Below are positions 10,564-30,659 of a DNA stretch of 64,000 nucleotides, in pieces; the stretch's first letter is position 1, and every line of letters starts with the position of its first letter. Under the pieces are notes generated by a model, which did not search any database, had not been told where the DNA came from, and saw only the letters and a program-made list of their open reading frames with translations. The position numbers and the translations under genes were made by a program. Source of the stretch: Leeuwenhoekiella nanhaiensis (GTDB taxonomy: Bacteria > Bacteroidota > Bacteroidia > Flavobacteriales > Flavobacteriaceae); NCBI RefSeq assembly GCF_002744755.1, contig NZ_KZ319296.1:1-64000 (forward strand), read 5' to 3'.

Positions 10564-11478
10564 ATGCAGAAAATTACCCTTCTACTTCTTATTGCACTCC
10601 TGTTCAATTCCTGTGGTGTTCACAAACGCGCTGCAATCAAAGCCCAGGAAGAATTTGTTGTAGAACTGCGTAAACCCGCAAGCCGGGGTGGGCTGGTAGA
10701 AGTTGCTCTGCAGGGTTTGTTCTTTGGGGCCGATTACCTGGCCGAAAAGACGGCAAAGTCCCTGACCAGCAGCTATTCACAATCTTTGTCTGTTAACGAT
10801 TATTACAATACCGATCTCGGCGCGGTTGAGAAAACCTATTCGGAGATTCGTATCAAAAAATACGCGGCTCCGCAAGCTGAAGCTGATGAACAGCGGCTTA
10901 AGGGCTATATCGAAAGCGATTTGCAAACGATGCCCAAATCGCGGGGTGCTGCCGGCGCAATGACGATGAATGATGTTATCAGGGTGCAGGACAGTAAGGA
11001 AGATCTGCTCAATTTTGAGGCCGTTATCGCTATTGAAAGCGATCCCGAAAACCCCGGCGTCTCCCGGCTGAGTTTTAATGAATTGCGCATTCTGTTTTCG
11101 CGTACCAAGATTTATGAAGATGAAAACCTAAACGCGCGGTTATCGGTATCTATAACCGGGCAGTGGCGCAGTGCAGACAATACCCCGATGGAAGCAGTCC
11201 TGATTGAGCAGGAATACGATTTAAAAAATCTGAAGTACGGCACCGAAAATCAAATCGAAACGCCTATTCTGTCGCCCTGGTATTACGACATTCCGTATCG
11301 GGCTGAAGATGCTGATTTTGGAAAATACGGGGTAGTGAAGGTCAATGTACAGCTTCAGGAGTATGAAGGAGGTAAAAGCAAATACATCAATCAGTTGCCC
11401 AGTATACTTTCAGACAATAAGAATGCGATCATTAAAAACGGTTCGAGCACCATTCAAAAAATCTTAGGTAAGGACTAA
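10564..11478 (+). CDS. Hypothetical lipoprotein, first gene of the protease operon
   Basis: A 304-residue protein with a short lipoprotein signal: a hydrophobic run from residue 4 and LFNSC, so Cys17 is the likely lipidated residue. I do not recognise a family. The body is mixed alpha/beta, with predicted beta strands in the second half (SITGQWRS, VLIEQEYDLKN, GVVKVNVQLQEYEGG). It is the first gene of a five-gene run with spacings of 2, -25, 24 and 19 bp, and the CHASE2 gene starts 2 bp after its stop. Context suggests an outer- or inner-membrane anchored partner of the CHASE2/caspase module. A short palindrome, TTTGTACAAA (10514-10523), lies 40 bp upstream and may be part of the control region. 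Confidence 0.7.
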   Translation: MQKITLLLLIALLFNSCGVHKRAAIKAQEEFVVELRKPASRGGLVEVALQGLFFGADYLAEKTAKSLTSSYSQSLSVNDYYNTDLGAVEKTYSEIRIKKYAAPQAEADEQRLKGYIESDLQTMPKSRGAAGAMTMNDVIRVQDSKEDLLNFEAVIAIESDPENPGVSRLSFNELRILFSRTKIYEDENLNARLSVSITGQWRSADNTPMEAVLIEQEYDLKNLKYGTENQIETPILSPWYYDIPYRAEDADFGKYGVVKVNVQLQEYEGGKSKYINQLPSILSDNKNAIIKNGSSTIQKILGKD

Positions 11479-11480
11479 CT

Positions 11481-12656
11481 GTGAAAAAAAGACACCCCAA
11501 AATCCTCTTTTCCGATGCGTTGCTATGTACCCTGTTTACCTGCATCGTTAGCGGTTTGCTGTATGTTTTGGTGCTCAATATTTCAATACTTGACCCCTTC
11601 TCAAGAGCCTTTGAGGATTTTGAATTTACCGATCTCTATTTTTCTAAAAATTTTTACAGCAAGCAGGCAGATCCTGAAATCATCGTGGTCAATGTAGGGC
11701 AGGCCGATCGTTTTGCTATTGCGCAGGCCCTCCAAAAAATCAATAAATTTAAACCTAAAGCCGTAGGTATAGATCTCATTTTTAAAGAACGCAAAGCCGA
11801 TTTTCCCGATGAACAGTTGCGGTTGGCGCTGTCAGAAACTGAAAACCGGATACATGCCGTGTATCTGGAGAATGGGAGCCTGAAGGAGTCTCATCCTTTT
11901 TTTGAACTCGATCAGGAGCAGGGCGGTTTTATCAACTTCAATCTGGATGGGAATTCGCGTGTGGTACGCGAGTTTACCGGAGTTTTAAAAGAAGATTCGG
12001 TCACGCGATATGCGTTTGCCGGGAAGCTGGCCGTTAAAGCAGGTTACCTGAATGAAACTGCATTAAAGCAACATTACGATACCGAAATTCCCATAAGGTA
12101 TTCGGGAGGTGCGGCTTCTTTTTTAACGCTCACACTAGAAGAAATCAACGAGCGGGAAGATCTTCAGGTTTTAACTAATGCGGTGGTTTTGCTGGGCTAC
12201 GCCGGAACTCCTACCGGAAACCCTTACGATATTGAAGACCGGCATTTCACGCCTTTAAATCCCAATTTTACAGGCCGAAGTATTCCCGATACCTATGGGG
12301 TTTACATTCACGCCACGATTTTACAAAATCTAAAAACGGGAGTGGGATTTTATAAAGTGCCAAAGCCCCTGTCGCTAAGCATCGCGGTTTTATTTTGTTT
12401 TCTGGCCATTTTGGCGGGTATGCGCATCCATAAAAAAAGCGATGTGGTATTTGACCTGAGTATTAAAATCCTGCAACTGCTTATTCCCGTGCTGTTGCTG
12501 TATGGGGCCCTGATTCTGATGGACTGGGGCATTTATATCGCGGTTTTACCCGCGGTGGTTCTGGTTATTCTAGGCTTAGAATGCATTGATTTTTACGTTT
12601 ATTTTCAACGAGTTATACGGAAAGGATACCCATGGAAAAGCTACTTATTGGATTGA
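11481..12656 (+). CDS. CHASE2-domain membrane sensor without an output domain
   Basis: A 391-residue protein that starts at GTG, 2 bp after the preceding stop. One N-terminal membrane segment (about 13-33) is followed by an extracytoplasmic CHASE2 domain (about 60-295; IIVVNVGQ, KPKAVGIDLIF, RDEQ-type helix, VLLGYAGTPTG, GVYIHATILQN) and then two or three membrane segments (about 300-320, 335-355, 358-378). This is the usual CHASE2 topology, but the kinase, cyclase or other cytoplasmic output found in most CHASE2 receptors is absent, leaving about 18 residues. CHASE2 domains sense unknown extracellular cues. In cyanobacteria CHASE2 occurs together with FecR and CHAT proteins, a grouping repeated here. 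It overlaps the next gene by 25 bp, implying coupled translation. Confidence 0.88.
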   Translation: MKKRHPKILFSDALLCTLFTCIVSGLLYVLVLNISILDPFSRAFEDFEFTDLYFSKNFYSKQADPEIIVVNVGQADRFAIAQALQKINKFKPKAVGIDLIFKERKADFPDEQLRLALSETENRIHAVYLENGSLKESHPFFELDQEQGGFINFNLDGNSRVVREFTGVLKEDSVTRYAFAGKLAVKAGYLNETALKQHYDTEIPIRYSGGAASFLTLTLEEINEREDLQVLTNAVVLLGYAGTPTGNPYDIEDRHFTPLNPNFTGRSIPDTYGVYIHATILQNLKTGVGFYKVPKPLSLSIAVLFCFLAILAGMRIHKKSDVVFDLSIKILQLLIPVLLLYGALILMDWGIYIAVLPAVVLVILGLECIDFYVYFQRVIRKGYPWKSYLLD

Positions 12657-13402
12657 TTTGTTTTTTGGCTTCCTATGCACAGGCGCAAGACAGCCTGTAT
12701 GTGTATCAAACGGAAGGCATTGTGCTAAAGGGTAAGCTGAATGCTAAAACCCGGGTACAAAAGGGAGCTTTGCTTACCCCTCAGGTAAAGGTAGAACTAC
12801 AACCTCAGGCCAGTCTTACCGCGATTAGTAAAGACGGGTTGCTTTATACCGCAAACGATCCCGGTTTGTACACGCACGCTATGTTATTAAAACGTAAGAC
12901 GCAGGTTTATCCTAAAAATCTATCGGCTAATTATTTCAAATACATCTGGTCTGAATTGTTGGGAAATAGCACCAAACCCACACAAATAGGCGGCGTCTTC
13001 AGGGGTGAAAGCCTGATGTTGTTTCCGGCAGACCGTTCACATATTGCCGGTTCGCGTCTGGAATTTCGATGGTTACAGGATGCTCCGGAAGCTTCAGGCT
13101 ATTTATTTATTCGCGAAGCGGAAGGTGAGGCCGTCTTAAAACTGGAAAGCAACGGTAGCAGTCTGGCGTTTTACGACAATCCCTTTTTTGAAGAAGGAAA
13201 ATCCTATGAATGGGCGGTTACCACGGAAGCTTTTCCCAATTTAAGCAATCTGCGTTTTTTCAGTTTTAAACATATTACTAAAGCGGAGTACGAAGTCTTG
13301 CGCGAAGCGTTCATATCCGAATTGAATAACCCTCTGCTGGCAGGACTTTCCAAACAAGAGCTGGAAAAGCTGTTGTGTGAAGAATATGGGCTTTGCAAAT
13401 AG
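12632..13402 (+). CDS. Exported FecR-like beta protein
   Basis: A 256-residue protein with a signal peptide (1-18, YAQAQ). The N-terminal half resembles FecR/SH3-like beta domains (VLKGKLNAKTRVQKGALL, VKVELQPQASLTAIS, DGLLYTANDPGLYT); the match is weak and is offered as a likeness, not a firm assignment. Residues about 130-225 look like a fibronectin/Ig-type beta sandwich (RLEFRWLQDAPEASGYLFIR, SYEWAVTTE). A short helical tail ends in two cysteines. It starts inside the CHASE2 gene and is followed 24 bp later by the propeller-caspase. FecR domains pass signals in other systems; here it could be a periplasmic link between CHASE2 and the caspase. Confidence 0.65.
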   Translation: MEKLLIGLICFLASYAQAQDSLYVYQTEGIVLKGKLNAKTRVQKGALLTPQVKVELQPQASLTAISKDGLLYTANDPGLYTHAMLLKRKTQVYPKNLSANYFKYIWSELLGNSTKPTQIGGVFRGESLMLFPADRSHIAGSRLEFRWLQDAPEASGYLFIREAEGEAVLKLESNGSSLAFYDNPFFEEGKSYEWAVTTEAFPNLSNLRFFSFKHITKAEYEVLREAFISELNNPLLAGLSKQELEKLLCEEYGLCK

Positions 13403-13426
13403 CCCGATAACTCTAAAACAGGTTCT

Positions 13427-16400
13427 ATGCGATGTATCAAAATAATAAGTTGTTGGTGCCTTTTTTTACTGGCCACTACAGGTGTTTTTAGTCAAAAACA
13501 GGACATTGCCTACACCCCTTCGGGTATTGAGTCGATTACCGCCTTTGATGCCAATGCAAAATCGGGTATGGTCGCAATGGCCGTCTACCCCAATACAGAG
13601 GTGTTGCTGTATGATATGTATACCGCCGATGTTGTTTTTAGAATTAGTGGAAACACCTACACGGCAACGGCGCTGAGTTTTGATGAAAGCGGCGAACAAC
13701 TCCTCATTCATTATCCCAACAAGACGGAGGTTTGGGATCTAATCGCTTTTGAAAAAAAAGTGAGTTATGCTACCGACCTGTATGCACCCCGGGCGTTCTC
13801 CTTTCCAAATCAATCATTTGTAAGCCAGGAAAGTCAAAACCTGGTTTTTAGGGATATCGATCAGGCTCTAACGCAACAAACCTCATTTGACGGGATTGTA
13901 AGCCGCCTGGAGTTTACTCCAGACGGCCGTCAACTGGTTGTTCAGGGTATAGGTTTTCTCAAAGCCCTTGCCGTTGCAGATCTCAACAGGCAGACTGATT
14001 ATAACCTGCAGCATGTAAACAATTTTGTGCTTGGAGAGCAGCAGTTTGTAGTACAGCAAAGAGCCCCGCAATCTTCGTCAGGTTCTGATGTGCGACTCAG
14101 TTTCTACAATTATCAGGGCCAAAAAACCAGCGAAAGCATTCAGCCTGAAAAGGCCTTTCAAACCTTCAATGCTGGGATGCAATTGCTTACAGACCAGCTT
14201 CTGTTGTACGAATCATTTGATAAGGTGTTTCTAATTAACCAGCAGGGTGGGGAAGAGGCTCTGGAATTTGACCCGGGCTTAGAAGATTTTAGGTTTATCA
14301 GAGGACTCGGTTTTGTGCTCAATTTTAAAAAGCGACTGGAGCTTCGGGATCTGGAAGGCAATCTGATCAACCGGTTTTATGCTAAAGACTTTTTGTCAAA
14401 GGGCAGTTTTATCAATCCCGAAAGCGGTGAAGTCGCTGTGATTATTGATAGTTCACTCGTTTTAGGGAACGACACTGCAAAAACTCCAAAGCAAATCAGT
14501 CTCAATTCCAGACTTGTAAATACGGTGACCGGCGACGGGGATGCCCTAGCCTTTGCAACCCACGACGGATACCTCAGGTATTGGAACTTAAAAAACCAAA
14601 AAGAACGCCTGGCTTTTGCGCATAAGCAGAAGACTGCTCCACAATTTTTAAGCCTCAATATTTCGGAACAGGTCATCGTCGCAGGATTTCCGAGAGCACA
14701 TCAGGTAATGGCCTATGATATCAAAACCGGTAAGGAACGTGCGGTACTTCAAATTCCACAGGATCAGCACATCACAGCCCTGGCTTTTGACGGAAAACAA
14801 CTCGTAATCGCCACACGCACCGGAAATTATGCCGTTTATGAACTGCAAACTCAGGCCTTTGCCCTTAAACGCGATTTTACTCCGGCGCTTTCTAACGCAA
14901 TAACAGGAATTAGTATCTCCCATAATAAAGCAGCCCTGAGCAGCCTGGGGCGTATTGTAAAAGTGATTTTAAACCGGGAGGATACCATTGAAAACAAAGA
15001 TGTAATCGTAGGACACTCCAGTTTTATTCACGGCATAGATTACGATAAAAGCGGGACCTATTTGGCAACCGCCGATGTTGCCGGAGACATGCATTTTTGG
15101 GATGCCGAAAAGGGTCGTCTGGTGCACAGCATTCATCTCGATTCTGCCTGGGTTAAAAACCTGAAGCTGCACGATAGCCTGTATGTGACTTCATCAGGCC
15201 CCGGTGTGCTTACTGCCAACTTTTACAATCCTGTGGTATATAAAAAAATCACTGATCCCAAACCTAAACTGCTGGTGCAAAGCGCAAATACCAGTGCCAT
15301 AAGACAGGTGGTCTTTAGCCGGGACGGTAAACTGCTCGCCAGTGATGACGGATCGGTTATTAAAGTCCGGGAGGTGCAAACCGGTTTTTTAATCAGTGAG
15401 TTCAGTACCCAAAATAACACCATTAACGATCTTGACTTTTTGCAGGATAGTGCGACTTTAGTAGTAGCCTCGGGCAAGGCTGTTGAATTTTTTGATGCCT
15501 ATACCGGAGAGTCGAGGAAATTTCTGGATTTTAAAACCCGTAACCGCAGCATTCATCAGGTGAAGGTTTTTCCCAATTTTAATACGGTAGTAGGGCTTAA
15601 TGTACACGGCTGGCATTATCCGCTTTTGATTCATAGCAATTCAGGACTTGTGGTGGGCACGCTTGATGTAAATCCGGAGGCTGAAAAAGACCGTCAAATC
15701 ATCAACCTGATCGTGTCCCGGGACGGTAAGCGTATCGCGACTTACGGCAACAGCTATATCAAGGTTTTCTCGGTAGATGAGCAATTAAAGCTGCAGCAAT
15801 TGACGGCGTATCCACGCAGTGCTCCTGATAAAAGCAATACGTATTGGAACGATCTAATGAGTTTTAATGCTTCCGGAAACCAGTTGTCTTTTGTAGAAAT
15901 GGACAGTCCCAACAAGCTGAAGGTTCTGGATGTGGAAACAGGCAGAATTACTTACGAAACCCGTGGCAAACTTTCGGTTTATGGGTTGAATGACGAGTTG
16001 GTGGGTATGGTGCCCGGTGATGTAAGCCTTTCGTATCTGGAGCCCGGTACCACATCGTGGAAATTTATGTTTGCTGAGCAGGAGCATATAAATCTGATTT
16101 CCAGTTTGGATTACGATCCGGTAAACCAGCTGTATGCCAGTGCAGATAGCTGGGGAAATCTTATCACCTGGGATGCGGAAACTAAAACTCCCCTGTGGCA
16201 GATAGATCGTTTTGAAAATGATATCTACAACGCAGAGCTGAATGCCACGGGCGATCAGATGGCATTTAATACCAAGAGCGGCATTTTTATTTTCGATTTC
16301 AAGCAGTTTAAGATGCGCAAGCTGGAAGGAAACAACTATCCGTACTTTGGTAAATTTTCTAAAGATGGACAGCTTTTCTATTACCGCCAGGCTAACGATT

Positions 16401-18577
16401 ACCGCGTATACCGGGCTGCAAATGAGGCTGATGCCTTGCTGTTTACAACTCCGGTTTCTAAAGACGATGCTTCCGGCAGTTTACTATCTGATGATGGCAG
16501 CGTGCTGAGTTTTAAAAATAAGGCTACCAGTGTTTTGCATTCGTACGATTTAAAAACCAAAGCAGCCCTGCCTGTAGTGAATCTGAATGAAGTACCGGGA
16601 TATTTTTCCCTTACCCCAAAATCTACGACGCTTGACGCTTCCGGAAAACTTCTATTAACAGGTACAGGTATAAAGCGCACAGCAGACTCCCTGATCGTGT
16701 TTAATAAAATCACCTATGTGCCCGCCACCCGAAAGCTTTCGGTGCAATCTGGAGATCACAGTATAGACCTTAAAGAACAGAAAGGCTTTCTGGACTACCG
16801 AATCAAATATCATTCGGCACTGGACGCGTATTCTCAAGACGGTCGCTATTATGCCTATCTGGAAGATTTTCATCTTAAAATTGAAGACCTGGAAGCCGGT
16901 GAAGTGGTATACGACCGCTATGTAAAGGGATTGGATATCGTAAACGGTTTGTTTGCTGAAGACAGTAAAAGTTTGATTTTAGGCTATGAAAACGGCTCTG
17001 TCGAAGTATTGGCCGTACCAGATATGAAGACCGTCTATTCTTTTGCGGGGAGCACTTCGCATATAACAAACCTGCAAGTTGCTAATCGCTATCTGATGGT
17101 TCTGGGTGACGATAACCTGATCAACGTGTTTGATAGTCAGGAAGGTTTTAAGCTGTTGTATTCGGCTACGTTTTTGAAAGACGGGGAGTTTATACTCTCC
17201 AATCCCGATGGGTATTATTATGCTTCTAAAGAGGCCCGAGAGGCTGTGGCGTTTAAGAAGGGTGATGCGGTATATCCTTTTGAGCAATTTGACCTGTTTT
17301 ACAATCGCCCCGATAAAGCTATTGACAATCTGGTACATCTGGGAATTACTGATTCCCTGTTGCAGCAGGGCTATGAGATGGCCTATGAAAAGCGGCTGTT
17401 TAAAATGGGTTTTAAGGAAGAAGGACTTTCAGGGGACTTTGAGCTTCCGGTTTTGGAATTACTTACCAAAGATCTACCAGCCACCACATCGGAAGCTAAC
17501 CTGAGTTTTGACGTACGCGCAACCGATAAAAATCATGATCTGGATCGTATTCTGGTCTGGATTAATGATGTGCCCGTCTACGGCTCAAAAGGGCGCAGTG
17601 TGCGTGCTCAAAATACGCGAAGCCTGTCTGAAAACATTAATCTAAATCTGGCAAGCGGAAGCAATAAAGTACAGGTGGCAGTGGTCAATACTTCGGGAGT
17701 TGAAAGTTTAAAGAAAACCTTTGTAATTAACTCTACTGCTCCCACACCGAAGCCTGATTTGTATGTGGTAAGTATTGGCGTTTCTACCTATCAGGATTCG
17801 GGTTATAGTCTGAAGTATGCAGCAAAAGATTCGCGGGATTTGATTGCCTATGCCCTTGAAAATACTGCCGGTTACGGAAAAATTCATCAGCATAACCTGA
17901 CGGATGAGCAGGTGACTAAGGTCGGTATAACCAAACTCAAAGACAGCCTTAGTCAATCGCGCATCAACGATGTGGTGATCGTGTTTTTTGCCGGGCACGG
18001 GGTGCTTGATGCGGAGATGAATTATTATCTGGGTACTTACGATATGGATTTTGAAAACCCCCAGGAAAAGGGACTGGCCTACGATGGACTTGAGAACCTG
18101 CTGGATGGTATTCCGGCACTTAATAAACTGCTCATCATTGATGCCTGTCATAGTGGGGAAGTAGATCAGGAAGAAACCGCTCTGGCAGAACAGGAGCTGA
18201 CAAACTCTAAAGTTAAAGCCGGAAAACGGGGTTCTATTGTGGTAAAATCAAAAAGCAAGCAACTGGGACTTGAAAATTCTTTTGAACTGATGCAGCTGCT
18301 GTTTTCCGATTTAAGGCGGGGCACCGGTGCCACGGTGATCAGCTCGGCAAGTGGTCTGGAATATGCCTATGAGGGAGAAGCCTGGGAAAACGGCGTTTTT
18401 ACCTATGCCATGCTTGAGGGGCTCAAATCAGGTAACTGTGACCTCAATGAAGATGGAGCTGTGCAGGTATCTGAACTGAAAAGCTACGTGTTTGATAAGG
18501 TTTCTGAACTCACTAACGGCAAGCAGAATCCTACCTCACGAAAAGAAAACCTGGAATATGATTTTACGGTGTGGTAA
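13427..18577 (+). CDS. Exported WD40-type propeller and caspase (peptidase C14) protein
   Basis: A 1716-residue protein with a signal peptide (1-22, ending VFSQ). About 1,300 residues of WD40-like propeller repeats fill the N-terminal part (ATADVAGDMHFWDAEKG, FATHDGYLRYWNLKN, ASADSWGNLITWDAET). An Ig-like domain (about 1340-1435) comes next, then a caspase-fold peptidase from about 1441 (DLYVVSIGVSTYQDSG, LKYAAKDSRDL). The catalytic pair is present: His1524 in FFAGHG and Cys1574 in IIDACHSGE. The protein is closely related in its last 400 residues to the one at 21222-25238. It acts outside the cytoplasm; the propellers probably bind partners or substrate and keep the caspase inactive until triggered. 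Orthocaspases usually cut after Arg/Lys; specificity here is unknown. Confidence 0.92.
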   Translation: MRCIKIISCWCLFLLATTGVFSQKQDIAYTPSGIESITAFDANAKSGMVAMAVYPNTEVLLYDMYTADVVFRISGNTYTATALSFDESGEQLLIHYPNKTEVWDLIAFEKKVSYATDLYAPRAFSFPNQSFVSQESQNLVFRDIDQALTQQTSFDGIVSRLEFTPDGRQLVVQGIGFLKALAVADLNRQTDYNLQHVNNFVLGEQQFVVQQRAPQSSSGSDVRLSFYNYQGQKTSESIQPEKAFQTFNAGMQLLTDQLLLYESFDKVFLINQQGGEEALEFDPGLEDFRFIRGLGFVLNFKKRLELRDLEGNLINRFYAKDFLSKGSFINPESGEVAVIIDSSLVLGNDTAKTPKQISLNSRLVNTVTGDGDALAFATHDGYLRYWNLKNQKERLAFAHKQKTAPQFLSLNISEQVIVAGFPRAHQVMAYDIKTGKERAVLQIPQDQHITALAFDGKQLVIATRTGNYAVYELQTQAFALKRDFTPALSNAITGISISHNKAALSSLGRIVKVILNREDTIENKDVIVGHSSFIHGIDYDKSGTYLATADVAGDMHFWDAEKGRLVHSIHLDSAWVKNLKLHDSLYVTSSGPGVLTANFYNPVVYKKITDPKPKLLVQSANTSAIRQVVFSRDGKLLASDDGSVIKVREVQTGFLISEFSTQNNTINDLDFLQDSATLVVASGKAVEFFDAYTGESRKFLDFKTRNRSIHQVKVFPNFNTVVGLNVHGWHYPLLIHSNSGLVVGTLDVNPEAEKDRQIINLIVSRDGKRIATYGNSYIKVFSVDEQLKLQQLTAYPRSAPDKSNTYWNDLMSFNASGNQLSFVEMDSPNKLKVLDVETGRITYETRGKLSVYGLNDELVGMVPGDVSLSYLEPGTTSWKFMFAEQEHINLISSLDYDPVNQLYASADSWGNLITWDAETKTPLWQIDRFENDIYNAELNATGDQMAFNTKSGIFIFDFKQFKMRKLEGNNYPYFGKFSKDGQLFYYRQANDYRVYRAANEADALLFTTPVSKDDASGSLLSDDGSVLSFKNKATSVLHSYDLKTKAALPVVNLNEVPGYFSLTPKSTTLDASGKLLLTGTGIKRTADSLIVFNKITYVPATRKLSVQSGDHSIDLKEQKGFLDYRIKYHSALDAYSQDGRYYAYLEDFHLKIEDLEAGEVVYDRYVKGLDIVNGLFAEDSKSLILGYENGSVEVLAVPDMKTVYSFAGSTSHITNLQVANRYLMVLGDDNLINVFDSQEGFKLLYSATFLKDGEFILSNPDGYYYASKEAREAVAFKKGDAVYPFEQFDLFYNRPDKAIDNLVHLGITDSLLQQGYEMAYEKRLFKMGFKEEGLSGDFELPVLELLTKDLPATTSEANLSFDVRATDKNHDLDRILVWINDVPVYGSKGRSVRAQNTRSLSENINLNLASGSNKVQVAVVNTSGVESLKKTFVINSTAPTPKPDLYVVSIGVSTYQDSGYSLKYAAKDSRDLIAYALENTAGYGKIHQHNLTDEQVTKVGITKLKDSLSQSRINDVVIVFFAGHGVLDAEMNYYLGTYDMDFENPQEKGLAYDGLENLLDGIPALNKLLIIDACHSGEVDQEETALAEQELTNSKVKAGKRGSIVVKSKSKQLGLENSFELMQLLFSDLRRGTGATVISSASGLEYAYEGEAWENGVFTYAMLEGLKSGNCDLNEDGAVQVSELKSYVFDKVSELTNGKQNPTSRKENLEYDFTVW

Positions 18578-18596
18578 TGAATAAAGAGACGACATA

Positions 18597-21208: not shown

Positions 21209-21221
21209 GGTGCTCCCAAAG

Positions 21222-24200
21222 TTACCACAAGCGGTAATTGAGCGCGATGTTTTGCGATCGGAAAGCCGGGGTTTGCCTGCCGTCTGAAAGTCGTTTTACT
21301 TCGTGAGAGACGTATTCCTGCAGTTCGTTTAGCATAATGGTCGTATCTGCATTAAGATCGGCCTTACGGGTTTTGATGCCATTTATAAAACTGTAGGTAA
21401 ACAAGCCGTTATTCCACTGGTCTCCCTCGTAGGCAAACTCAGCACCTCCGGCTGAAGAAAGCACAAAAGCTCCCGAGCCGCGTCTGAGATCGGTAAAAAT
21501 ATCCAGATTGAGCCGCTCGTACTCATCGAGTTTTGATGCTTTGGTCGTAACAACAATAGCGCCACGCGATTTAATCACTCCGTCTTTATCTGCGTTATCA
21601 GCTGTGCTCAGGCTGGTAAATTCCGGTTCGAGTTCGCCGCTGTGGCAGGCGTCGAGAATGAGGATTTTAGAAAGCGCCGGGATTCCGTCAAGACTGGCAT
21701 CCAGGGCTTCGTATGAAATCCCACCCTGAGCGGGATTGTCAAAGTTAGTCTGATTGCCAGCGAGGTAATACTCAAAATCTGACGTTAAAAGACCGTGACT
21801 GGCCAGAAAAACCATCACCACATCATCCCGCCCGGCCTTACTTACAAAGTTGCGTATTTTAGGAAGCACAGCAGGCGTAACTTCTTCATTTAGGAGCTGA
21901 AGCACGTGAACCTGATTAAATAGCTCATTGGTTTTTACTAATTGGGTGATATCACGGGCATCTTTAGCCGCATATTTTAAGTTGTATCCTGAATTTTTAA
22001 AACTGCTAACCCCTAAACTCACCAGATAGAGATCCTTTTCCTTTTGATCTTTAAAGCAATCTACAATAAGTGTTTCCTTAATGCTTTCAATACCTTCGGT
22101 ATTCCGTACACTCACCTGAATGGTGTTTGAGCCGTTGGCTAAATCAATACGCAGTTCCTTTGCAAGTTTCTTCTTTTCCGCGTCAGCAATTTTAATGCCT
22201 TCAACGCCGTAAATAGGCACATTATTAATCCATATATGCAGGCTCTCAAGCTCACCGCCATTTGCACCGGCACTCAGGGTAAGTTGTAGTGTTCCAGTTG
22301 TGTTGGTCCCGCTGATGTTGTTCTGGTTTACAATGCGTACCTCCGGCAGCGTAGACTTAATCAGGGATTTGGAATTAAACCCCATTTTTTTAAGACGATT
22401 CTCGTAGAGTTTTTTATATGCCGCCAGCGTGGTGCTGTCAGCATAGCCCAGGCGTTCTAAAACAATATCAGGCCGGTTGTAGCGCAGATCAAATTGTTCG
22501 GGTTGGTAAATCTTTTCACCCTCGGCATACCAGGTGTATTTAAAGATATTCCGTGTACCCATAAAGTAATTGTCAGGATAGGCAATGATAAAATCGCCCT
22601 CGGGAAGCATCAATACAGAAGGCTGTAAACTGTCTTCTTTTGCGGTTTTGACAGCTACCAGATTGTCGTTTTCGCTGTAGGTAAATTTTGTTTTTTGTGG
22701 CGCATCCGGTTTATATTGGAGATAGGTTTCCAACGGGGTAATTCTGGAGGTTATTTTTGCAGGCGTAGCCTCAAAATCCATTCGGTGTAGGTGATTGGTA
22801 AGGCTGTCGTTAAAAAATACCTGATCGCCCAGACGTAAGAAAAGCTTTTGAGGCGGAGTGCCGATCCAGCGGTCATCAAGCACCAGATCGCTTTGTGTTT
22901 GAGTTTCCACGTCAATAAAGCTAAAGCTTAGATTTTTGGTTAAATCAGCTTCCACGTAGATATCGGGCATTTCCGGGTCCTGGGTGAGAACCTGGGGTAA
23001 ATCGGTTTCAGAATTTATCGAAAAAATCTGGCCCTGACCTACGCGTCGGGTAGCAATATAGCGGTCAGAAAGGTATTCAAAATCATAAAAGAGGGAAGCG
23101 TTTTTTACTTCCAGAAACCTATAGTCTTTGGCATCAGGCGATGAGGTGTAGCGTATAGATGGTCCGTAGGTGTATTCTTCATCCTCAAAGCGAAAAGTAT
23201 TTTCGTTTTCCTGAATGTCTTGCAAATAGATACTTCCGGTATCGGTTTGAAGGTGAGGCAGGAGACTGGTATTTTTAGCCTCGAGGAGTTTGCCTTTTTT
23301 GAGATCAACCGTAAACAGGATGTTGCCGTTCCGTTTAAAATGAACCTGTTGTTTTTCATGAATCAGGTCGTAGAAAAAGGTGTTTCGGATTTCTAAATCT
23401 GCAAGCCGGTCTGCTGAAGGAGTAAGGCTAATCGTTTTCTTTGCAGTGTGTAAACGCAAACCTGCGGGGCGTATAACCGTAACCGTGTCGGTTTTAAAAA
23501 ACTCCTCACAGTCCCAGCAATCTGTTATACGTTCTTCCTGAATGCTGTCTTTTAGGACTTCCAGAAAATAGACCTTGCCGGCCTCTTTAAAATAGAGTTG
23601 ATTGGGGTAATTTTTTAGCAGCCTAAAGCTTTCTGCTGCATATACCGAGCTTCCTCTGCCGGCCTTGTAGCCTACAACTTCGGTACCGGAATTGGTATAA
23701 TAGAGCACATCGTAAAGCTGATCTTCAAACCGGCTTATGGGCAGGACTTTAAAGCTGTTGAGGTCAATTACCACATCTTTGCGACCTTTAGAGCCAAAGG
23801 TCCATCCTCCTGATTCTACATACGAATTGATCTGCAAGACTACCTTATGTTCTTCCGGAATAATGGTAAAGGCATCGCAGGCATTGGTTTCGGGCAGGGT
23901 GAGTTGTTGCGTAAACTCCAGTTTCTCCAGATCAAAGGCAATGAGTTCTATTTTATTTGATGATGTGATAAAAACCATCAGCAGATGATTTTTGAAAAAG
24001 GCAATATGTGAAATTTGTGAATAGGCCGGTTTAAGCGAATCGAGTGCATTAAAGCGGCTTTGTTTACCGGTTTTAGCATCAAAAACAAGGAGGCTGCCAT
24101 CGTCGTAGACCGTTACCCATTTAGAATCATTAGCTCCAAATACATAATTCTTAGCCTGAAGGCTAAGCGCCCGTTGTTGAAATCGCAATTGCAACAGGCT

Positions 24201-25238
24201 GCGATTTAAATTGAAATCATGTTCTTGCAGTAGGGGGTGGGTCAGCGTATTGTAAACGGTTTGAGAGTTGGCGTCCAGTAATCCCAGAATGCTGCTTTTT
24301 TGATTAGCCAGGTTATACAGGTAAAGCGTAAGTTTTTTTTCTGCATTTTCCCGCGTATAGAGCATGAAGTCGCCGTCAGGATTGAGGGTTCCGTTGAGGT
24401 CAAAATGATCCTGTACCGCAGAGGGAAACGAGTCAAGCAGCAAGGTCCCGGTAGCGGAATCTAATACTGACACGGCGGAAGTGTGTTTGAAAATCAGGGT
24501 GTTGCCAGGGCCAAAGAAGACATCGGTTGCATACGTCTCCTGCGGGTTGAATGCGGCAGGTTTCTGCAGATCTATGCGCTTTTGGGTTCGATAGTCGTAT
24601 AGAAAAAGATCTTCGCGGTCTAAAAAAACCTCTTTGCGTACGCTGCCTGTATCTAGACTTGTCAGGCTTTCGGTATAACTGAGCTCAGCACGTGCTTTGA
24701 ATTCGTGAAAATCGAGTTTTTGTGTTTTAAGGTCGTAGCTCTGAATGCGCAGTTGCTCGCAATAGTTTATACAGCTCCTGATGATAATACGGTTTTCTGA
24801 ATCAAAGTACGCAGCTTGCACAGGCTCTTCGAGCGTAAAACGTTGAATCTCATTCCCAGTATCCAAATCAATCAGCAGGTAAAAGGCATCAGGCTGCTTC
24901 TCGTCTTCGGTATTTATAATTTGTTGATAGCCCAGAATTTTACCTGATGGACTGATACTAACCCCCTGAATGCGATAGTCCTGAGCATCTGAACCTGAGG
25001 CGTTTTTGATTCGGCCCTCAAGACTTATATTTTTCAACACCACAAAATGCTCGAGATCCCATACGCTAAGTTCCTTAAAATTGTGTAGCACCAGACGGTT
25101 TTGGTTGGCATTTAGCGTACTTGCAGATCCCAGGTGGTAATCCCAGGTATTGAGACCAAAATTGGTGCGCAGGCTTGCCTGTTGAGCCAAGCAGGTGCAG
25201 GCTGTAAGCAAAATAAGGTATTTAATATATCTGAGCAT
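21222..25238 (-). CDS. Exported beta-propeller and caspase (peptidase C14) protein
   Basis: A 1338-residue paralogue of the 1716-residue caspase. The N terminus is a signal sequence that can be read two ways: SPase I after CLAQ, or a lipobox LTAC with lipidated Cys14. About 900 residues of propeller-like strands follow, then an Ig-like segment and the caspase from about residue 1065 (DLYLVSLGVSSFKNSGYN, LKYAAKDARDI). Catalytic His1148 (LASHG) and Cys1198 (ILDACHSGE) are present. It is the last gene of the minus operon and ends 13 bp from the stop of the TPR-CHAT gene, tail to tail, with no clear terminator between them. Likely a second effector or receptor protease of the same pathway. Confidence 0.9.
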   Translation of the reverse strand: MLRYIKYLILLTACTCLAQQASLRTNFGLNTWDYHLGSASTLNANQNRLVLHNFKELSVWDLEHFVVLKNISLEGRIKNASGSDAQDYRIQGVSISPSGKILGYQQIINTEDEKQPDAFYLLIDLDTGNEIQRFTLEEPVQAAYFDSENRIIIRSCINYCEQLRIQSYDLKTQKLDFHEFKARAELSYTESLTSLDTGSVRKEVFLDREDLFLYDYRTQKRIDLQKPAAFNPQETYATDVFFGPGNTLIFKHTSAVSVLDSATGTLLLDSFPSAVQDHFDLNGTLNPDGDFMLYTRENAEKKLTLYLYNLANQKSSILGLLDANSQTVYNTLTHPLLQEHDFNLNRSLLQLRFQQRALSLQAKNYVFGANDSKWVTVYDDGSLLVFDAKTGKQSRFNALDSLKPAYSQISHIAFFKNHLLMVFITSSNKIELIAFDLEKLEFTQQLTLPETNACDAFTIIPEEHKVVLQINSYVESGGWTFGSKGRKDVVIDLNSFKVLPISRFEDQLYDVLYYTNSGTEVVGYKAGRGSSVYAAESFRLLKNYPNQLYFKEAGKVYFLEVLKDSIQEERITDCWDCEEFFKTDTVTVIRPAGLRLHTAKKTISLTPSADRLADLEIRNTFFYDLIHEKQQVHFKRNGNILFTVDLKKGKLLEAKNTSLLPHLQTDTGSIYLQDIQENENTFRFEDEEYTYGPSIRYTSSPDAKDYRFLEVKNASLFYDFEYLSDRYIATRRVGQGQIFSINSETDLPQVLTQDPEMPDIYVEADLTKNLSFSFIDVETQTQSDLVLDDRWIGTPPQKLFLRLGDQVFFNDSLTNHLHRMDFEATPAKITSRITPLETYLQYKPDAPQKTKFTYSENDNLVAVKTAKEDSLQPSVLMLPEGDFIIAYPDNYFMGTRNIFKYTWYAEGEKIYQPEQFDLRYNRPDIVLERLGYADSTTLAAYKKLYENRLKKMGFNSKSLIKSTLPEVRIVNQNNISGTNTTGTLQLTLSAGANGGELESLHIWINNVPIYGVEGIKIADAEKKKLAKELRIDLANGSNTIQVSVRNTEGIESIKETLIVDCFKDQKEKDLYLVSLGVSSFKNSGYNLKYAAKDARDITQLVKTNELFNQVHVLQLLNEEVTPAVLPKIRNFVSKAGRDDVVMVFLASHGLLTSDFEYYLAGNQTNFDNPAQGGISYEALDASLDGIPALSKILILDACHSGELEPEFTSLSTADNADKDGVIKSRGAIVVTTKASKLDEYERLNLDIFTDLRRGSGAFVLSSAGGAEFAYEGDQWNNGLFTYSFINGIKTRKADLNADTTIMLNELQEYVSHEVKRLSDGRQTPAFRSQNIALNYRLW

Positions 25239-25262
25239 ACAGGCTTAGGGGTCTGATTTAAT

Positions 25263-26795
25263 TTAGCCTTTACGCAGTTTTTTTAAGTATTTAAAGAGTG
25301 ATTTGTTACGTTTATCTTTTGCAATGTTTTCAGGAAAATTACCTTTAGAATTAGACTCTTTAGCAAACGAGCGATTCATATTTAGCAAAAAATCAACGCT
25401 CTGCAAATTGCCTGTGGTAACAGCCAGATGCAGCAGATTGTTCTGTTCTTTATCTTTTATACTAGTATCTGCGCCGGCATCTATGAGCCTTTTTGCCCAG
25501 GTAAGATTAGCATTTATTATGGCTTCCTGAAGTGCAGTGTATGGCTTATCTGCCCCGGCATCGGGATAGAGATCGCGCTCCATCAGGATTTGATACAGAC
25601 GCTCATCGTTTTGTTTAATCGCGTAATCTAGCAGTTCGCGGTGTTGCGCATCGGTGTAGGTTTCAAAAGTATAATCAAGTATGGCATCATACATCTCGTA
25701 GTTGCCATTACTTAAAGCCAGTACTTCCAGACGGCCACGGTCTAAGGTATAAGAACGATTAAAAATCCATTTGTAGGTTGCCCAGTCGTTAAAACGCTGG
25801 GTATTATTTGTTTCTATAGCATAGGCGATATTCTCATAGATACTGCGTATTAACAAATCGGTTGGTACCGAAGTTATCTTGTGTGCCTGGCAACCCGCGG
25901 TATAAACCGCACTGTCAAAAGTTACTGTTTTTACACAATCACATTCTTCATCATAGTAGTAATCACCGCTGTAATCCCCATTGAGGTAGGTTACAGCACC
26001 CCTAACCAGAATGCCCTCAATCCAGCCATAATCGTCAAAAACCGGTCCACCAGAGTTACCCGGGAAGGAGTCTATATCACTCTTAAACCAATTGGATGGC
26101 GATGCATCAACAACCTCCGCGTTTTCTGCAAATTTGAGCGGTAAACCTGTAGGCGAACCAATGGTATTTACACCGGTTCCTACAGCTATACTGCCGCTGG
26201 TTCTAAAGCGATACGGACGGCGGTCTGATTTTCGCTTCAGGCGTAAAATTGCATAATCATCATCGGTAGCATCATCAAGTTTAGCGCTTAATACTTCGGC
26301 TACCTCATAAATGTTATTAGGATCTAAAGGGATAGCGTGTGTGGTGGTATTGAATTGCTTGTCGCTGGTGTAATCAAAAACCCAAACATAAGGCTCAGCA
26401 TCTTCCATCGTTTGTATGCAATGGCCGGCAGTTACCAGAATGTCTGGCGCGATAAGAAAACCGGTACAGTTAGCCAGCGCAGGCTGATCTAAAAACTGCA
26501 CATTATCATCAAACTTTTCGGTTTCAAACATATAACTTAAGCGCTCTTCGAGTGAATAGGAATAAGCGATGTTGTTCTGTATACTGCGCTTATCGACCAT
26601 CACGGCAGTAGCTCGCACAAAATCCTGATAACCTACTGCATCCTGTGCCTCTTTGCGATCATCGGGACCAAATACACCACGGGAGGTACTTCCGGGTTCA
26701 CCAAAAGGATATTCAATAGCAGGTTCGGTATCCTGTGCGTATACAGCAGCAGACACAAGCAAAACAAAAATACTGAGAAGGGTAATTTTATTCAT
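25263..26795 (-). CDS. Exported trypsin-like serine protease with ankyrin repeats
   Basis: A 510-residue protein with a signal peptide (1-20, AVYAQ). The S1-family catalytic triad is visible: His125 in VTAGHC, Asp180 in DDDYAILRL and Ser248 in FPGNSGGPVF, a pattern close to glutamyl-endopeptidase-type members. The C-terminal half contains ankyrin repeats, the clearest at about 410-490 (ALQEAIINANLTWAKRLIDAGADT, NLLHLAVTTGNLQSVDFLLN). A Cys pair near 270 (EECDCV) could form a disulfide. It is 21 bp downstream of caspase-DUF4384 and 24 bp upstream of the propeller-caspase. Inference: it either activates or is activated by the caspases, with the ankyrin part docking a partner. Confidence 0.9.
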   Translation of the reverse strand: MNKITLLSIFVLLVSAAVYAQDTEPAIEYPFGEPGSTSRGVFGPDDRKEAQDAVGYQDFVRATAVMVDKRSIQNNIAYSYSLEERLSYMFETEKFDDNVQFLDQPALANCTGFLIAPDILVTAGHCIQTMEDAEPYVWVFDYTSDKQFNTTTHAIPLDPNNIYEVAEVLSAKLDDATDDDYAILRLKRKSDRRPYRFRTSGSIAVGTGVNTIGSPTGLPLKFAENAEVVDASPSNWFKSDIDSFPGNSGGPVFDDYGWIEGILVRGAVTYLNGDYSGDYYYDEECDCVKTVTFDSAVYTAGCQAHKITSVPTDLLIRSIYENIAYAIETNNTQRFNDWATYKWIFNRSYTLDRGRLEVLALSNGNYEMYDAILDYTFETYTDAQHRELLDYAIKQNDERLYQILMERDLYPDAGADKPYTALQEAIINANLTWAKRLIDAGADTSIKDKEQNNLLHLAVTTGNLQSVDFLLNMNRSFAKESNSKGNFPENIAKDKRNKSLFKYLKKLRKG

Positions 26796-26816
26796 AAAGA
26801 CTAGGGTTATAGAATG

Positions 26817-28787
26817 TTATTCTTTGGTTTCAACGATTTGATACAAAAACTCAGTCGCATAGCCATCTACTTTACCAGAAGTAGCAGCACCGGTGCCTCC
26901 ACGGGTTTTTACATAGGTGTTAGCCAAAAACGACTCCAGCGGATTGGCGGTTCCTGCAGTAACACCACCGCGGGTTTGTACAGTTGACTTAAAGTTGATA
27001 GGGGACGGCGAGGCAAAACCTTTCAGCATCAGCTTTTCAAAAGGAGGGCCGAATGAGAAAATACAATCTTTAAACACCATAGTTTGTCCCGGAGCCAGTT
27101 TGCGCTCGTTGTCGTTTAGTGTACATTGATCATTGGGCATAAAGGGATTGATTTCTCCCTTACTATTGATTTCAATAATGCTGAAATACAGTTCGCGATC
27201 ACTTTCATTGGTGACTTCAAGCACGACGTGATCCTCACCGGGAAGTACACTAAAAGTTCCGTTTGCATCAGCAAAAGCTGAAGGTTCCATCAGTTCGCCA
27301 AAGGTTTCCATCACGGGGTCGTAGCTAACCGGTAACAGACGGAAACTAAACTCGTAATCGGGATTTTGCATTTGCAGGTCTTTGAGGTATTGCCCCTGTG
27401 CGTAGTTAAAGAGTTTTTGCTTCAGATCGTCAAGAGCCGCAGTACCGCGGGACGCTTCAACCGCATCAACTTTCAGTTGACCGTTGGTCGCATTTAACGT
27501 ATAGCCATTTTGATCACCGGTAATGATGACGGATGATTGCAACGAATCACTAACCAGGCTTCCCAGGCTGTTTTCAGTTAAAAATTGCTCGAGATCTTTG
27601 GATATGCTTTTTTCGGCTACGGAAGCATCCAGATATACCTGTAGGTTGATATCTCCATAGGTTTTTTCGTCAACAAAAACCCAGTATTCCTTTTCATTAG
27701 AGCCGGGTAAAGCTTTATCTAAAACAATATTGGCTTCATTGAATTTTGCCAGTTTTACCGTTCCCGTTGCCAGAATTTTGGAGCGGTCTAAACCGGTAGT
27801 TCCTGCTGGGAGAACAGCAACTGTAGTGCCTTCAAAAATACCCTGAAGTTTACCTGCCTGTATTTTAATCACATCGGGACGTAGCAGGGAGAGTATTTCG
27901 TGATAAGGCTCCTGTTTCACATATTCACCTTTAAAAATCTTATAATCAGGATTACCTTCCAGGGTTGGGGTTTGGTTGGGCGAAATCACGTTCATGGTAG
28001 CCGCCATTTTATTGTATAACTGGCGGTAGGTAAAATCACTTCCCAGTTCGGTCATAGCCTTATTGAAGGCATAGCTTAGTGAACCCACACCTTCATATTC
28101 ATAATTGAGTTCGTTTGCCGATGCCCCGCTGAACAGTACAAAAGGAGCCGCATCCGGTTTGATTTGTGCGGTTTCGAGCATATCGCTGCCGGCTTTGGTT
28201 TTCTTTTCGTTTGGCTCCCAGCCTTCTGGTGCAAAAGTAGCGGCGCCGCCACGAGCTTTTCCGCCACGGGTTGCAGAGCCTGAGTGGCAGCTGTCAAGCA
28301 GCATTACCAGCTGGCCGTCTTTGCCCAGTTTATTTCTAAAGTTGGTAATGAGTTTCCCGAGTTCATCGTCACGTATATGATTTTGCCCGCTGTAGTTATA
28401 GCTCGGCCTTACAAAAGCATCATAAGGAACAAGGGCTTCGTCTTTATCGTCTATCTCTTCGCCATTGTCATCAGCAATTTGCTGACCGTGACCCGAATAG
28501 TGAATGACCACAATATCTCCGGGCTCAATGGTTTCATTTAAGCGCTCAAGAGCATTGATGATACCGTCGCGCGTGGCCTGGCTATTCAGAAGAATGGTGA
28601 TATCTTCTTCAGTAAAACCCTGTTTGATAAGGGCTGATTTGATCAGCGGCACATCATTAGCCGAACTTATAGGGCTCCAACCGGTACTTGCCGGGTAATC
28701 GCCTACTGCAATAATCAGGGCTATTTTTTTAGCCTGAAGCGAAAATGAAAGAAAGAAGAGTAAGGATAAGAGTAGTATTTTTTGCAT
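26817..28787 (-). CDS. Exported caspase with C-terminal DUF4384-like domain
   Basis: A 656-residue protein. An upstream in-frame ATG exists, but MQKILLL at 28787 starts a proper signal peptide (about 1-19, LQA/KK) and lies 10 bp after the preceding stop. The caspase domain comes first (KKIALIIAVGDYPASTGW) with His100 in HYSGHGQQ and Cys167 in LLDSCHSG. The middle is a beta-rich region, and residues about 500-600 match DUF4384 (VLEVTNESDRELYFSIIEINSKGEINPF, LAPGQTMVF), which in other Bacteroidota is also joined to caspases. The C-terminal tail has two TRGG motifs, and further RGG triplets fall just after Cys167 (RGGKARGG). These could be autocleavage sites, since orthocaspases prefer Arg; this is inference. 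Confidence 0.9.
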   Translation of the reverse strand: MQKILLLSLLFFLSFSLQAKKIALIIAVGDYPASTGWSPISSANDVPLIKSALIKQGFTEEDITILLNSQATRDGIINALERLNETIEPGDIVVIHYSGHGQQIADDNGEEIDDKDEALVPYDAFVRPSYNYSGQNHIRDDELGKLITNFRNKLGKDGQLVMLLDSCHSGSATRGGKARGGAATFAPEGWEPNEKKTKAGSDMLETAQIKPDAAPFVLFSGASANELNYEYEGVGSLSYAFNKAMTELGSDFTYRQLYNKMAATMNVISPNQTPTLEGNPDYKIFKGEYVKQEPYHEILSLLRPDVIKIQAGKLQGIFEGTTVAVLPAGTTGLDRSKILATGTVKLAKFNEANIVLDKALPGSNEKEYWVFVDEKTYGDINLQVYLDASVAEKSISKDLEQFLTENSLGSLVSDSLQSSVIITGDQNGYTLNATNGQLKVDAVEASRGTAALDDLKQKLFNYAQGQYLKDLQMQNPDYEFSFRLLPVSYDPVMETFGELMEPSAFADANGTFSVLPGEDHVVLEVTNESDRELYFSIIEINSKGEINPFMPNDQCTLNDNERKLAPGQTMVFKDCIFSFGPPFEKLMLKGFASPSPINFKSTVQTRGGVTAGTANPLESFLANTYVKTRGGTGAATSGKVDGYATEFLYQIVETKE

Positions 28788-28797
28788 ACGCTTGATT

Positions 28798-30216
28798 TTA
28801 ATTAATATCAAATAAGCTGAAGGAGATCCCGAAGAAATACCCGAAATCATAGACTTTCTTGGTAAAATTATCCAGACTGCTCAGGCTGGTGGTCTGACCT
28901 GCTTCGAGACCGTCTGTAAGCCGGTCAACGGGACCATATGCCACACCTCCCGAAAGGGAAAGTCTGCTTTTACTACCTAAGAAAATGGAAGGCCCTAGTA
29001 AAAAGTTGACCCCGGTGATATCATCAGCCAGAGGAATTGAAAGTCCAAAGCTTCCGCCTACATTAAAGTTATCGCCTATTACGGGATAAAAATTGATCAT
29101 GGTGCTGAGGTTTGGGATGAAGTAATCATTAGCGGTAGCACCAATGACTCCCTCCTCACTGATGAAAAAATCTTTGGATTTATCTCCAAAATTGTTCAGG
29201 GTAAGGGCCACACTGCTGTTTATCTTAAAGCCTCCTGTGGCAAAAAGTTTTAGGCTTCGTGTTTTGATGGTGGTAACCTCTGCATCGGTATCCTGACTTT
29301 CAGAAAAGCTACTTTGAACAAATTTAAGATTGATATTTACCTCGTCTCCATCCATCTGGTAATCGTAGGTGCGTTCAAATGACGCGGCCTCGAGCTGGGT
29401 GTAGAGGGATCGTATTTCATCAATAGATAAATGAGCCAGCTCTGCCGTATTGCTTAAGGTAGCCTTTAGTGCTTCCAGATTACTTATGGTTCGGTTTCGT
29501 TCTACCAGTTCTCCGCGCGATATATTGGCACTTGATTCCGTTGCCGCTTCAACCTGCGTGGCCATAGTTTCCAGATCTCCTGCAAGTTGCTGTTTGTCAG
29601 CATTTATAATTTTGTCCAGATTAGAGAGGTATAAATAGAAGTTTGCATCAGGGTCACTAAGACGTGCATCTGCCTGTTGGCGTGCCAGGGCTTTTACATT
29701 TTGTAAAATTGCTTCTTTATCGAGATTAGGATTGAGTAAGTTGGCCTTCAGCGTATTTTCTAAAGCACGTACTGCGGTCATTTTATCGGATAGTTCTGTA
29801 AAAGCATTGCTTAGGCTTGTGCCGCGGGAGGCCGAATCAAAAAAATTAGAATTGTTAAGGGAGGACTGACTCACATTAAGTCCCAGATTATCACCCCCCA
29901 TCCCGCTTATACCACCCAGCAGGGAAGTGAAATTAAACCCCGAACCCGATGGGACTATGTCCTCCTCTTTAATATCAGCAATAACATCTACAGCAAAAGG
30001 ATTAACATTAACAAGCTTAATCTCTACCAAACTGTTACGCTTGAGACGCGGTTTTGTAAGCGTATCAATTACTGCATTGGTATTATCTAAAGCGAGATAG
30101 GTTGCTGCTTCGGTATTGTAATCGTAAAGAATACGGTATTTTTCCTGGGCTTGAAGAGCAGACTGTGAAATAAGACAAAAAAAACAAATAATTCCAGACG
30201 TAAGTAGTTTGGTCAT
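28798..30216 (-). CDS. Exported coiled-coil protein with outer-membrane barrel tail
   Basis: A 472-residue protein with a signal peptide (about 1-23, ALQAQ). A short beta domain (about 25-85) comes first, then a helical, coiled-coil-like stretch (about 135-275), then about 180 residues of alternating beta strands that look like a small outer-membrane barrel (SLKLFATGGFKINSSVALTL, FLLGPSIFLGSKSRLSLSGGVAYG, DFGYFFGISFSLFDIN). I do not recognise a named family. It is the first gene of the four-gene minus operon and ends 10 bp before the caspase start. Context suggests it anchors or secretes the protease module at the outer membrane. Confidence 0.7.
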   Translation of the reverse strand: MTKLLTSGIICFFCLISQSALQAQEKYRILYDYNTEAATYLALDNTNAVIDTLTKPRLKRNSLVEIKLVNVNPFAVDVIADIKEEDIVPSGSGFNFTSLLGGISGMGGDNLGLNVSQSSLNNSNFFDSASRGTSLSNAFTELSDKMTAVRALENTLKANLLNPNLDKEAILQNVKALARQQADARLSDPDANFYLYLSNLDKIINADKQQLAGDLETMATQVEAATESSANISRGELVERNRTISNLEALKATLSNTAELAHLSIDEIRSLYTQLEAASFERTYDYQMDGDEVNINLKFVQSSFSESQDTDAEVTTIKTRSLKLFATGGFKINSSVALTLNNFGDKSKDFFISEEGVIGATANDYFIPNLSTMINFYPVIGDNFNVGGSFGLSIPLADDITGVNFLLGPSIFLGSKSRLSLSGGVAYGPVDRLTDGLEAGQTTSLSSLDNFTKKVYDFGYFFGISFSLFDIN

Positions 30217-30466
30217 AAGGTTTAAGGTTAACTCAGGATTTGGTGCGATTTTATAGTGTTAAATATATTAACAATTTTCAAAGTATGCTATTTTAAAAAA
30301 GCATGAGTATTTAAAGGCAATGAGCTGCAGGATGTAGAAGTAAAAAGGTGGTTTGCAATGCGGTGCACTTGATCGTGGAGTTGGGCGGGCTAGCTTCACT
30401 TCACCGCAGTGACTCCAGTCCTGCAAGTATAACTGCCTGTCCTTGTAGTCCAGATGTCTTAAAACA

Positions 30467-30651: not shown

Positions 30652-30659
30652 AAAGATCG

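Follow-up and report, generated by a model that had tools for sequence, protein, structure and literature searches.

A recurrent but rare locus of caspase, CHAT and trypsin-type proteases in Leeuwenhoekiella nanhaiensis: a candidate proteolytic relay outside the cytoplasm

Background

The best-known bacterial modules with caspase, CHAT or trypsin proteases are cytoplasmic, such as Craspase (TPR-CHAT with gRAMP) and the gasdermin-linked proteases, in which caspase-clan or trypsin proteases act on dedicated partners; to our knowledge, the natural substrates of the bacterial caspases are mostly unknown. The present analysis concerns a locus with several such proteases at positions 10564-30216 of a stretch of 64,000 nt (the window) from contig NZ_KZ319296.1 of Leeuwenhoekiella nanhaiensis (Flavobacteriaceae; assembly GCF_002744755.1), which an earlier note had described as an exported multi-protease module with a CHASE2 sensor. 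The module is real and recurrent but rare, and its gene families co-occur beyond chance in other genera. We consider it, with a probability of roughly 60%, to be an accessory, horizontally moving proteolytic relay outside the cytoplasm that would have its own parts as substrates.

Among the closest described systems, the prokaryotic metacaspases and orthocaspases (C14, including the WD40-type) have the same catalytic His/Cys domain as the caspases described here, and WD40 and TPR are among the commonest domains accompanying prokaryotic metacaspases (PMC3501461). The present locus differs in having several such proteases with signal-like N-termini side by side, together with a lipoprotein, a trypsin and putative substrates of its own. 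CHASE2 is likewise linked with a caspase in a Trichodesmium CHASE2-metacaspase fusion (PMC3501461) and with WD40 proteins in the CHASE2/WD40/DUF928 cluster of Nostoc (PMC5587647); in the fusion, however, the caspase is predicted to be cytoplasmic, whereas here separate genes are involved and the caspases have signal-like N-termini. A CHASE2 protein with an exported partner, as here, is also found in Burkholderia, where LysM-FecR is encoded beside a CHASE2 histidine kinase (PMC5192318), and in Magnetospirillum, where MtxA is encoded beside a CHASE2 cyclase (PMC4439547), but both of those CHASE2 proteins have a cytoplasmic output domain, while the one described here has none and is accompanied by proteases. 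The EACC1-type and TRADD-N caspase systems are modular caspase-type conflict systems with CHASE2 in one variable tail (PMC8195603); the three caspases of the present locus (D, F and H) fall short of the NCBIfam EACC1-caspase cut-off (NF047832), scoring 81.0, 81.1 and 36.5, respectively, against 140 bits. The locus also differs from the gasdermin-linked systems, as no gasdermin was found in the Pfam and PADLOC scans of its ten open reading frames (ORFs). No such module was encountered in the titles and abstract openings of the literature on CHASE2, FecR, caspase, CHAT and metacaspase, a search with most subscription journals and preprints outside its scope. A recurrent set of proteases with signal-like N-termini and neighbouring predicted substrates would carry the logic of the cytoplasmic systems to the envelope, and the sequence itself indicates candidate cleavage sites that are directly testable.

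Results and discussion

Organisation of the locus

The locus consists of two convergent operons with 13 bp between their ends (21209-21221), and the ORF list agrees with the coordinates in the earlier note, whose nine genes correspond to ten ORFs since gene E is counted here as two. On the forward strand, A (10564..11478) encodes a lipoprotein of unassigned family with the lipobox FNSC (Cys17) and two (S/T)RG motifs, B (11481..12656) a CHASE2 membrane protein without output domain, a putative and apparently optional sensor, C (12632..13402) an exported CHASE2 partner (by a crude script) with a weak fold match to MtxA, and D (13427..18577) a WD40-propeller caspase with a signal-like N-terminus (Peptidase_C14, E 1.1e-13; WD40). 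Gene E follows in two parts, a 5' part (18597..19325) with a signal-like N-terminus (crude script) and TPR (Pfam), and a 3' part (19442..21208) with a CHAT protease domain (E 5.4e-53). On the reverse strand, F (21222..25238) encodes a caspase with a long N-terminal, propeller-like region (Peptidase_C14, E 3.1e-14), G (25263..26795) a trypsin-like protease with ankyrin repeats and a signal-like N-terminus (Trypsin_2, E 3.1e-16; Ank), H (26817..28787) a caspase with a metacaspase-like p20, a DUF4384 match below cut-off and four (S/T)RG motifs, and I (28798..30216) an exported protein (crude script), putatively of the outer membrane, with two (S/T)RG motifs preceding a conserved C-terminal part. 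By the ORF coordinates, B and C overlap by 25 nt and the other gaps are small: 2 bp for A-B, 24 bp for C-D and 19 bp for D-E on the forward strand, and 10 bp for I-H, 21 bp for H-G and 24 bp for G-F on the reverse, the I-H gap and the residue numbers of H being based on Met at 28787 as its start.

The catalytic residues proposed earlier were confirmed at their positions in D (His1524/Cys1574), F (His1148/Cys1198), H (His100/Cys167) and G (His125/Asp180/Ser248), the triad of G being unchanged in six of six aligned proteins. Peptidase_C14 (PF00656), CHAT, Trypsin_2 with ankyrin, and CHASE2 all scored above the Pfam cut-off, so that D, F and H, with PF00656 above cut-off and the catalytic His and Cys, belong to Peptidase C14. 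H aligns with metacaspase-4 and metacaspase-1 across both catalytic motifs, and a homologue of F (30% over 1422 columns) adjoins B-C-D in Lutibacter agarilyticus. Export signals had been attributed to all five proteases; four of them have an in-frame signal-like N-terminus, while the catalytic ORF of the CHAT protein has none by the crude script. No sorting domain of the type IX secretion system (Por_Secre_tail or similar) was detected in the ten ORFs (Pfam and NCBIfam; for D, among the best 25 of 29 Pfam families). The idea that surface proteins are the substrates is thus unsupported, and the periplasm or the outer membrane is a likelier site of action than the surface. As for I, which had been called an outer-membrane barrel, export is predicted by the crude script and the barrel itself was not confirmed, there being no informative Pfam match. 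A has no Pfam or NCBIfam match, and its AlphaFold model (mean predicted local distance difference test (pLDDT) score 38.8) was rejected as unusable.

Recurrence in other genomes

The caspase H was found in seven of 397 genomes of the family (H profile, E<=1e-30), and ten H loci were read, namely the window, the six other family matches and three further genomes of the same genus. Co-occurrence across genomes had been proposed as a check on the module, and the outcome is favourable: A, G, H and I recur in other genera together with caspase or CHAT proteins. Leeuwenhoekiella parthenopeia has the whole module except E. In L. blandensis, at another site, I-H-G, a caspase-like protein lacking the catalytic His/Cys motifs, a caspase-TPR protein and an RHS protein lie tail to tail with D-C-B-A, and in the metagenome-assembled genome (MAG) SAT51 only H faces A-B-C-D tail to tail. 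Genome G718 carries G-A-D facing caspase997-H-I, and in G531 this set faces A-D; the order in G486 is G-hydrolase-I-H-caspase-CHAT, A, G, I, H and a CHAT are found in both G494 and G473, and H of G472 is accompanied by two caspases and a CHAT, with A-B-C-D on a second contig. The D side and the H side are tail to tail in six of ten loci (window, L. parthenopeia, L. blandensis, SAT51, G718 and G531) and not in G486, G494 and G473, while the arrangement is not visible in G472. In Lutibacter agarilyticus, B-C-D-F all run in one direction.

At least one caspase-clan protein besides H is present in all ten. I adjoins H in eight of the nine loci with that side visible (it is absent in SAT51), A shares the locus with H in 8/10, and G was seen in 7/10 H genomes, being absent from the SAT51 stretch and out of view in G531 and G472. 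A was found in five of 269 family genomes, all of them H-positive (P about 2e-9 if seven H genomes were in the draw). As judged by these sequence matches, A, G, H and I are a recurring set, accompanied by caspases or CHATs that can replace one another (D, E, F and others). A phylum-wide unit was also considered and rejected, since A occurred in only one of 395 genomes of the phylum, the host itself.

Two proteins of the L. blandensis locus may be mentioned here. A 302-aa protein (L025:8923-9831) resembles the caspase tails of D and F by BLAST, has no Pfam C14 match and lacks the catalytic His/Cys motifs, and directly precedes the caspase-TPR protein, which keeps both. The RHS-repeat protein (L025:12840-14522), with DUF6531, lies in the module operon and has two (S/T)RG motifs.

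A shared (S/T)-R-G motif

The module of the window contains 12 (S/T)RG tripeptides against 1.96 expected, compared with 4 against 4.26 in the non-module ORFs of the window. By family, the observed and expected counts are 14 and 0.45 for A, 29 and 1.48 for H, 12 and 0.85 for I, 8 and 1.07 for CHAT proteins and 5 and 0.82 for other caspases, as against 13 and 15.6 in 138 flanking control ORFs; these counts omit L. parthenopeia (G004) and G531 (almost identical to the window and to G718, respectively), the partial G of G718 and the CHASE2/C pairs of L040 and L041, and take H and D of G472, cut by contig ends, as they stand. At least two motifs are present in 21 of 21 A, H and I proteins (16/16 with one genome per genus) versus 2 of 165 controls called exported by a crude criterion and 9 of all 604 controls. 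The seven A proteins have two each, 14 in all, and eight of ten locus sets, from six genera, have 6-12 motifs where 0.5-2 are expected. When tripeptides were ranked over the core proteins, SRG and TRG were among the highest, alongside conserved triplets of catalytic and structural kind.

RG is followed mostly by G, E, A or S, and H has sites just past the catalytic Cys and in the tail. In G, RG is found near the N-terminus in five of five aligned proteins, as (S/T)RG in three and PRG in two. Flank conservation, compared with the protein mean, is 0.72 and 0.46 versus 0.75 in A, 0.52 and 0.55 versus 0.71 in I, 0.87, 0.44, 0.70 and 0.61 versus 0.69 in H (0.77 at a fifth H site, present in 2/8 proteins) and 0.80 versus 0.68 in G. 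At the second A site, both I sites and one or two H sites, and not at the others, the motif is thus better kept than its surroundings, and in SAT51 the second A motif has moved by one residue and is still present. Papain-type CHASE2 neighbourhoods show no clear excess (1 observed and 1.68 expected in 11 papain proteins, 2 and 0.94 in four caspases, none in four other clusters), which argues that the motif goes with A, H and I and not with CHASE2 loci generally. No motif was found in the CHAT L065, from a distant genome, or in the CHAT fragment L043 (243 aa), which adjoins B-C in G486.

The CHASE2/C pair

B (391 aa), which was aligned with seven relatives, matches only CHASE2 (PF05226, E 1e-20) at E<=0.1, with no cytoplasmic output domain. 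Its partner C had been called FecR-like; no family was obtained for the window protein (Pfam, E<=0.1), FecR is not among the best 25 of 31 families for 19 C-family members at E<=1, and FecR membership was dropped on these grounds. In Foldseek, the model of C (mean pLDDT 67) matches mostly fibronectin- and Ig-type structures, with MtxA at rank 8 (E 3e-3), and one of the 19 members has a weak Pfam MtxA_C match (E 0.034), the C-terminal fold of MtxA being Ig-like with TPR. MtxA may be regarded as the one specific lead to the identity of C, a weak one based on a fold match.

B was found in 12/397 genomes of the family and in 70/395 of the phylum at E<=0.001, many of the latter being weak partial matches inside longer proteins. 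Thirty-six CHASE2 loci in 34 genomes, picked for strong B matches, were read. A C-family match adjoins B in 25 of the 36; in nine no C was found, and in two B was missed by ORF picking. The neighbours include papain-like proteases (with DUF4384 near the cut-off), caspases, CHATs and an M48 peptidase. A papain match lies within 10 kb of B in 11 of the 24 genomes covered by that count (0.12 expected), and a caspase in 8 of 34 (0.27 expected), one of the eight being the module genome G472. Papain-like or caspase genes are thus found close to CHASE2 genes across Bacteroidota far more often than expected by chance, and this link suggests a role for CHASE2 proteins without output domain. The CHASE2/C pair is thus a wider Bacteroidota theme, used by the module in some genomes. 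For the module the pair looks optional, because four of the ten H genomes (G718, G531, G494 and G473) are absent from the B family matches, the H and B searches, of 397 genomes each, being assumed to cover the same set; neither B nor C was seen in the loci of these four. The proposal that CHASE2 and FecR sense a cue needs revision on two points: the pair looks optional, and C is not shown to be FecR.

In L052, L054 and L055, from three Bacteroidota families, CHASE2, C, a papain-like protein, a protein of ~165 aa of unknown nature and a caspase occur in the same order. In two Flavobacteriaceae MAGs (L040:9217-11910 and L041:1006-3699), a similar 258-aa protein precedes CHASE2/C, and no caspase was seen in the stretches read. 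A single 750-aa ORF (L061:9633-11885) is hit by the CHASE2 profile as well as by that of C, which would suit a fusion of the pair.

A probable insertion site at the tmRNA gene

A transfer-messenger RNA (tmRNA) gene (ssrA; 30659..31058, reverse strand; ARAGORN) lies between I and the conserved flank, with its 3' end facing the module. Three copies of a 19-bp repeat of the tmRNA end are found there, the exact unit at 30655-30673 and two attachment-like copies, each with one mismatch to the tmRNA 3' end, at 30371..30389 and 30530..30548 on the forward strand; 100 shuffles gave none, and the degenerate repeat pattern has no match elsewhere in the assembly. These repeated sequences at 30371-30673 suggest more than one insertion. 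In L. parthenopeia, a repeat with two mismatches lies ~360 bp from I, with 6.5 kb and other genes between it and the tmRNA gene, and in the relative G002 the flank and the tmRNA gene are present with other genes at that place. The locus is probably situated at an insertion hot spot. By eye, an integrase-like ORF is the first large one past the tmRNA gene in G011 and G003.

Proposed mechanism and alternative explanations

Apart from the caspases, the C14 proteases characterised so far favour Arg/Lys at P1 (PMC5756287), and R-G may be the cut site of the Arg/Lys-type proteases of the module itself. A cue, received by CHASE2/C in the genomes that have the pair or else by the propellers and ankyrins, would free an upstream protease (D, F or G), which would then cut H in the loop past the catalytic Cys and in the tail. 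A and I, downstream together with H, would be cut next, and D and F could stand upstream; cutting of I would part its N-terminal region from the conserved C-terminal part and thereby change the outer membrane. B, having no output domain, would serve as a periplasm-facing platform and not as a transmembrane switch. The shared motif lends support to the earlier suggestion that the proteases act on each other, the cleavage itself being predicted. Of the possible purposes, namely defence, competition and envelope stress, a conflict system fits best, because of the patchy presence, the insertion hot spot and the swapping of parts. Doubtful, and offered tentatively, is a bolder form: a caspase cascade outside the cytoplasm with a cleavage code of its own, carried by tmRNA-site islands as an envelope analogue of pyroptosis-like defence. 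Its Arg-type caspase and trypsin relay would recognise (S/T)R-G in the lipoprotein, the executioner caspase and the envelope protein of the module and, once activated, would open or remodel the outer membrane.

Several observations weigh against the proposed relay. The R-G cleavage is a prediction from sequence only, the motif was seen first with the statistics following afterwards, and the orthologous rows in its counts are not independent. The excess is small in G027 (4 against 0.75, P 0.007) and absent in Lutibacter (1 against 0.39, P 0.32), where the stretch read contains none of A, H and I; it is also absent in D (3 against 2.24), weak in G (3 against 0.83) and F (2 against 0.54), and B and C have no motif at all. 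High ranks in the tripeptide lists are also held by WVF, GHG, CHS, SCH and GHC. Flank conservation is close to or above the protein mean at the first A site, at two H sites (0.87 and 0.70) and at the G site. Each of the two other host caspases has one motif, as does one of three non-module caspases from relatives. Export was called with a crude signal-peptide script and not a trained predictor, a crude strand-alternation scan did not set the C-terminal part of I apart (14/163 versus 17/276 windows), and gene E is frame-broken in this assembly. PADLOC gave weak and mostly generic caspase, protease and ankyrin matches for the ten ORFs, and thus no direct tie of the module to defence.

The R-G sites could instead serve constitutive trimming on export, as in the maturation of a zymogen or propeptide, the module being a group of nutritional or envelope-housekeeping proteases. 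The position of the G site near the N-terminus in all five aligned proteins would suit this, as would the polymer degradation suggested for Bacteroidetes in a paper on Baltic metacaspases (PMC4933709); we nevertheless find it unlikely, as the paired internal sites of A and I would be superfluous for simple maturation, the presence is patchy (7/397) at a probable insertion hot spot, and the CHASE2, propeller and ankyrin parts suggest regulation. Still less probable is a binding or modification motif without proteolysis, the module then serving envelope assembly: the mostly G, E, A or S residue after RG is compatible with it, but the P1 preference of the non-caspase C14 proteases (PMC5756287) speaks against it, and since each of the H loci read encodes two or more caspase-clan proteins, cleavage is the simpler explanation. 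A loose set of genes acquired separately at an insertion hot spot, to which the adjacent tmRNA gene, the attachment-like repeats and the differing gene content might point, can practically be set aside, since A occurs in the family draw only in H-bearing genomes, much of the module recurs at other sites and in other genera, and unrelated families have the motif in common.

Gene E and the neighbourhood of the locus

The two ORFs of gene E lie in different frames. The 0-frame ends at the TAG codon at 19323-19325, and the frames meet at the run TTTTTTA (19310..19316, forward strand), which we take to resemble a slippery heptamer, the CHAT part being in the -1 frame. The catalytic half is therefore out of frame with the signal-like N-terminus. 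The CHAT domain (PF12770) and the catalytic His/Cys pair claimed for this gene are indeed present, but in the 3' part of a split gene and not in one intact protein: the pair is His424/Cys501 of the 3' ORF, and the numbering His706/Cys783 holds only when the gene is read across the break. No second copy of gene E was found in the loci read. The break may reflect a pseudogene, an assembly error or programmed frameshifting. In the second frame, the break region can be aligned with two CHAT proteins from a different genus (L027), which suggests that E was once one gene.

Near the module, positions 3635-8224 of the window encode a protein of 1529 aa whose sequence looks, by eye, like an alpha-2-macroglobulin with a segment similar to a TonB plug.

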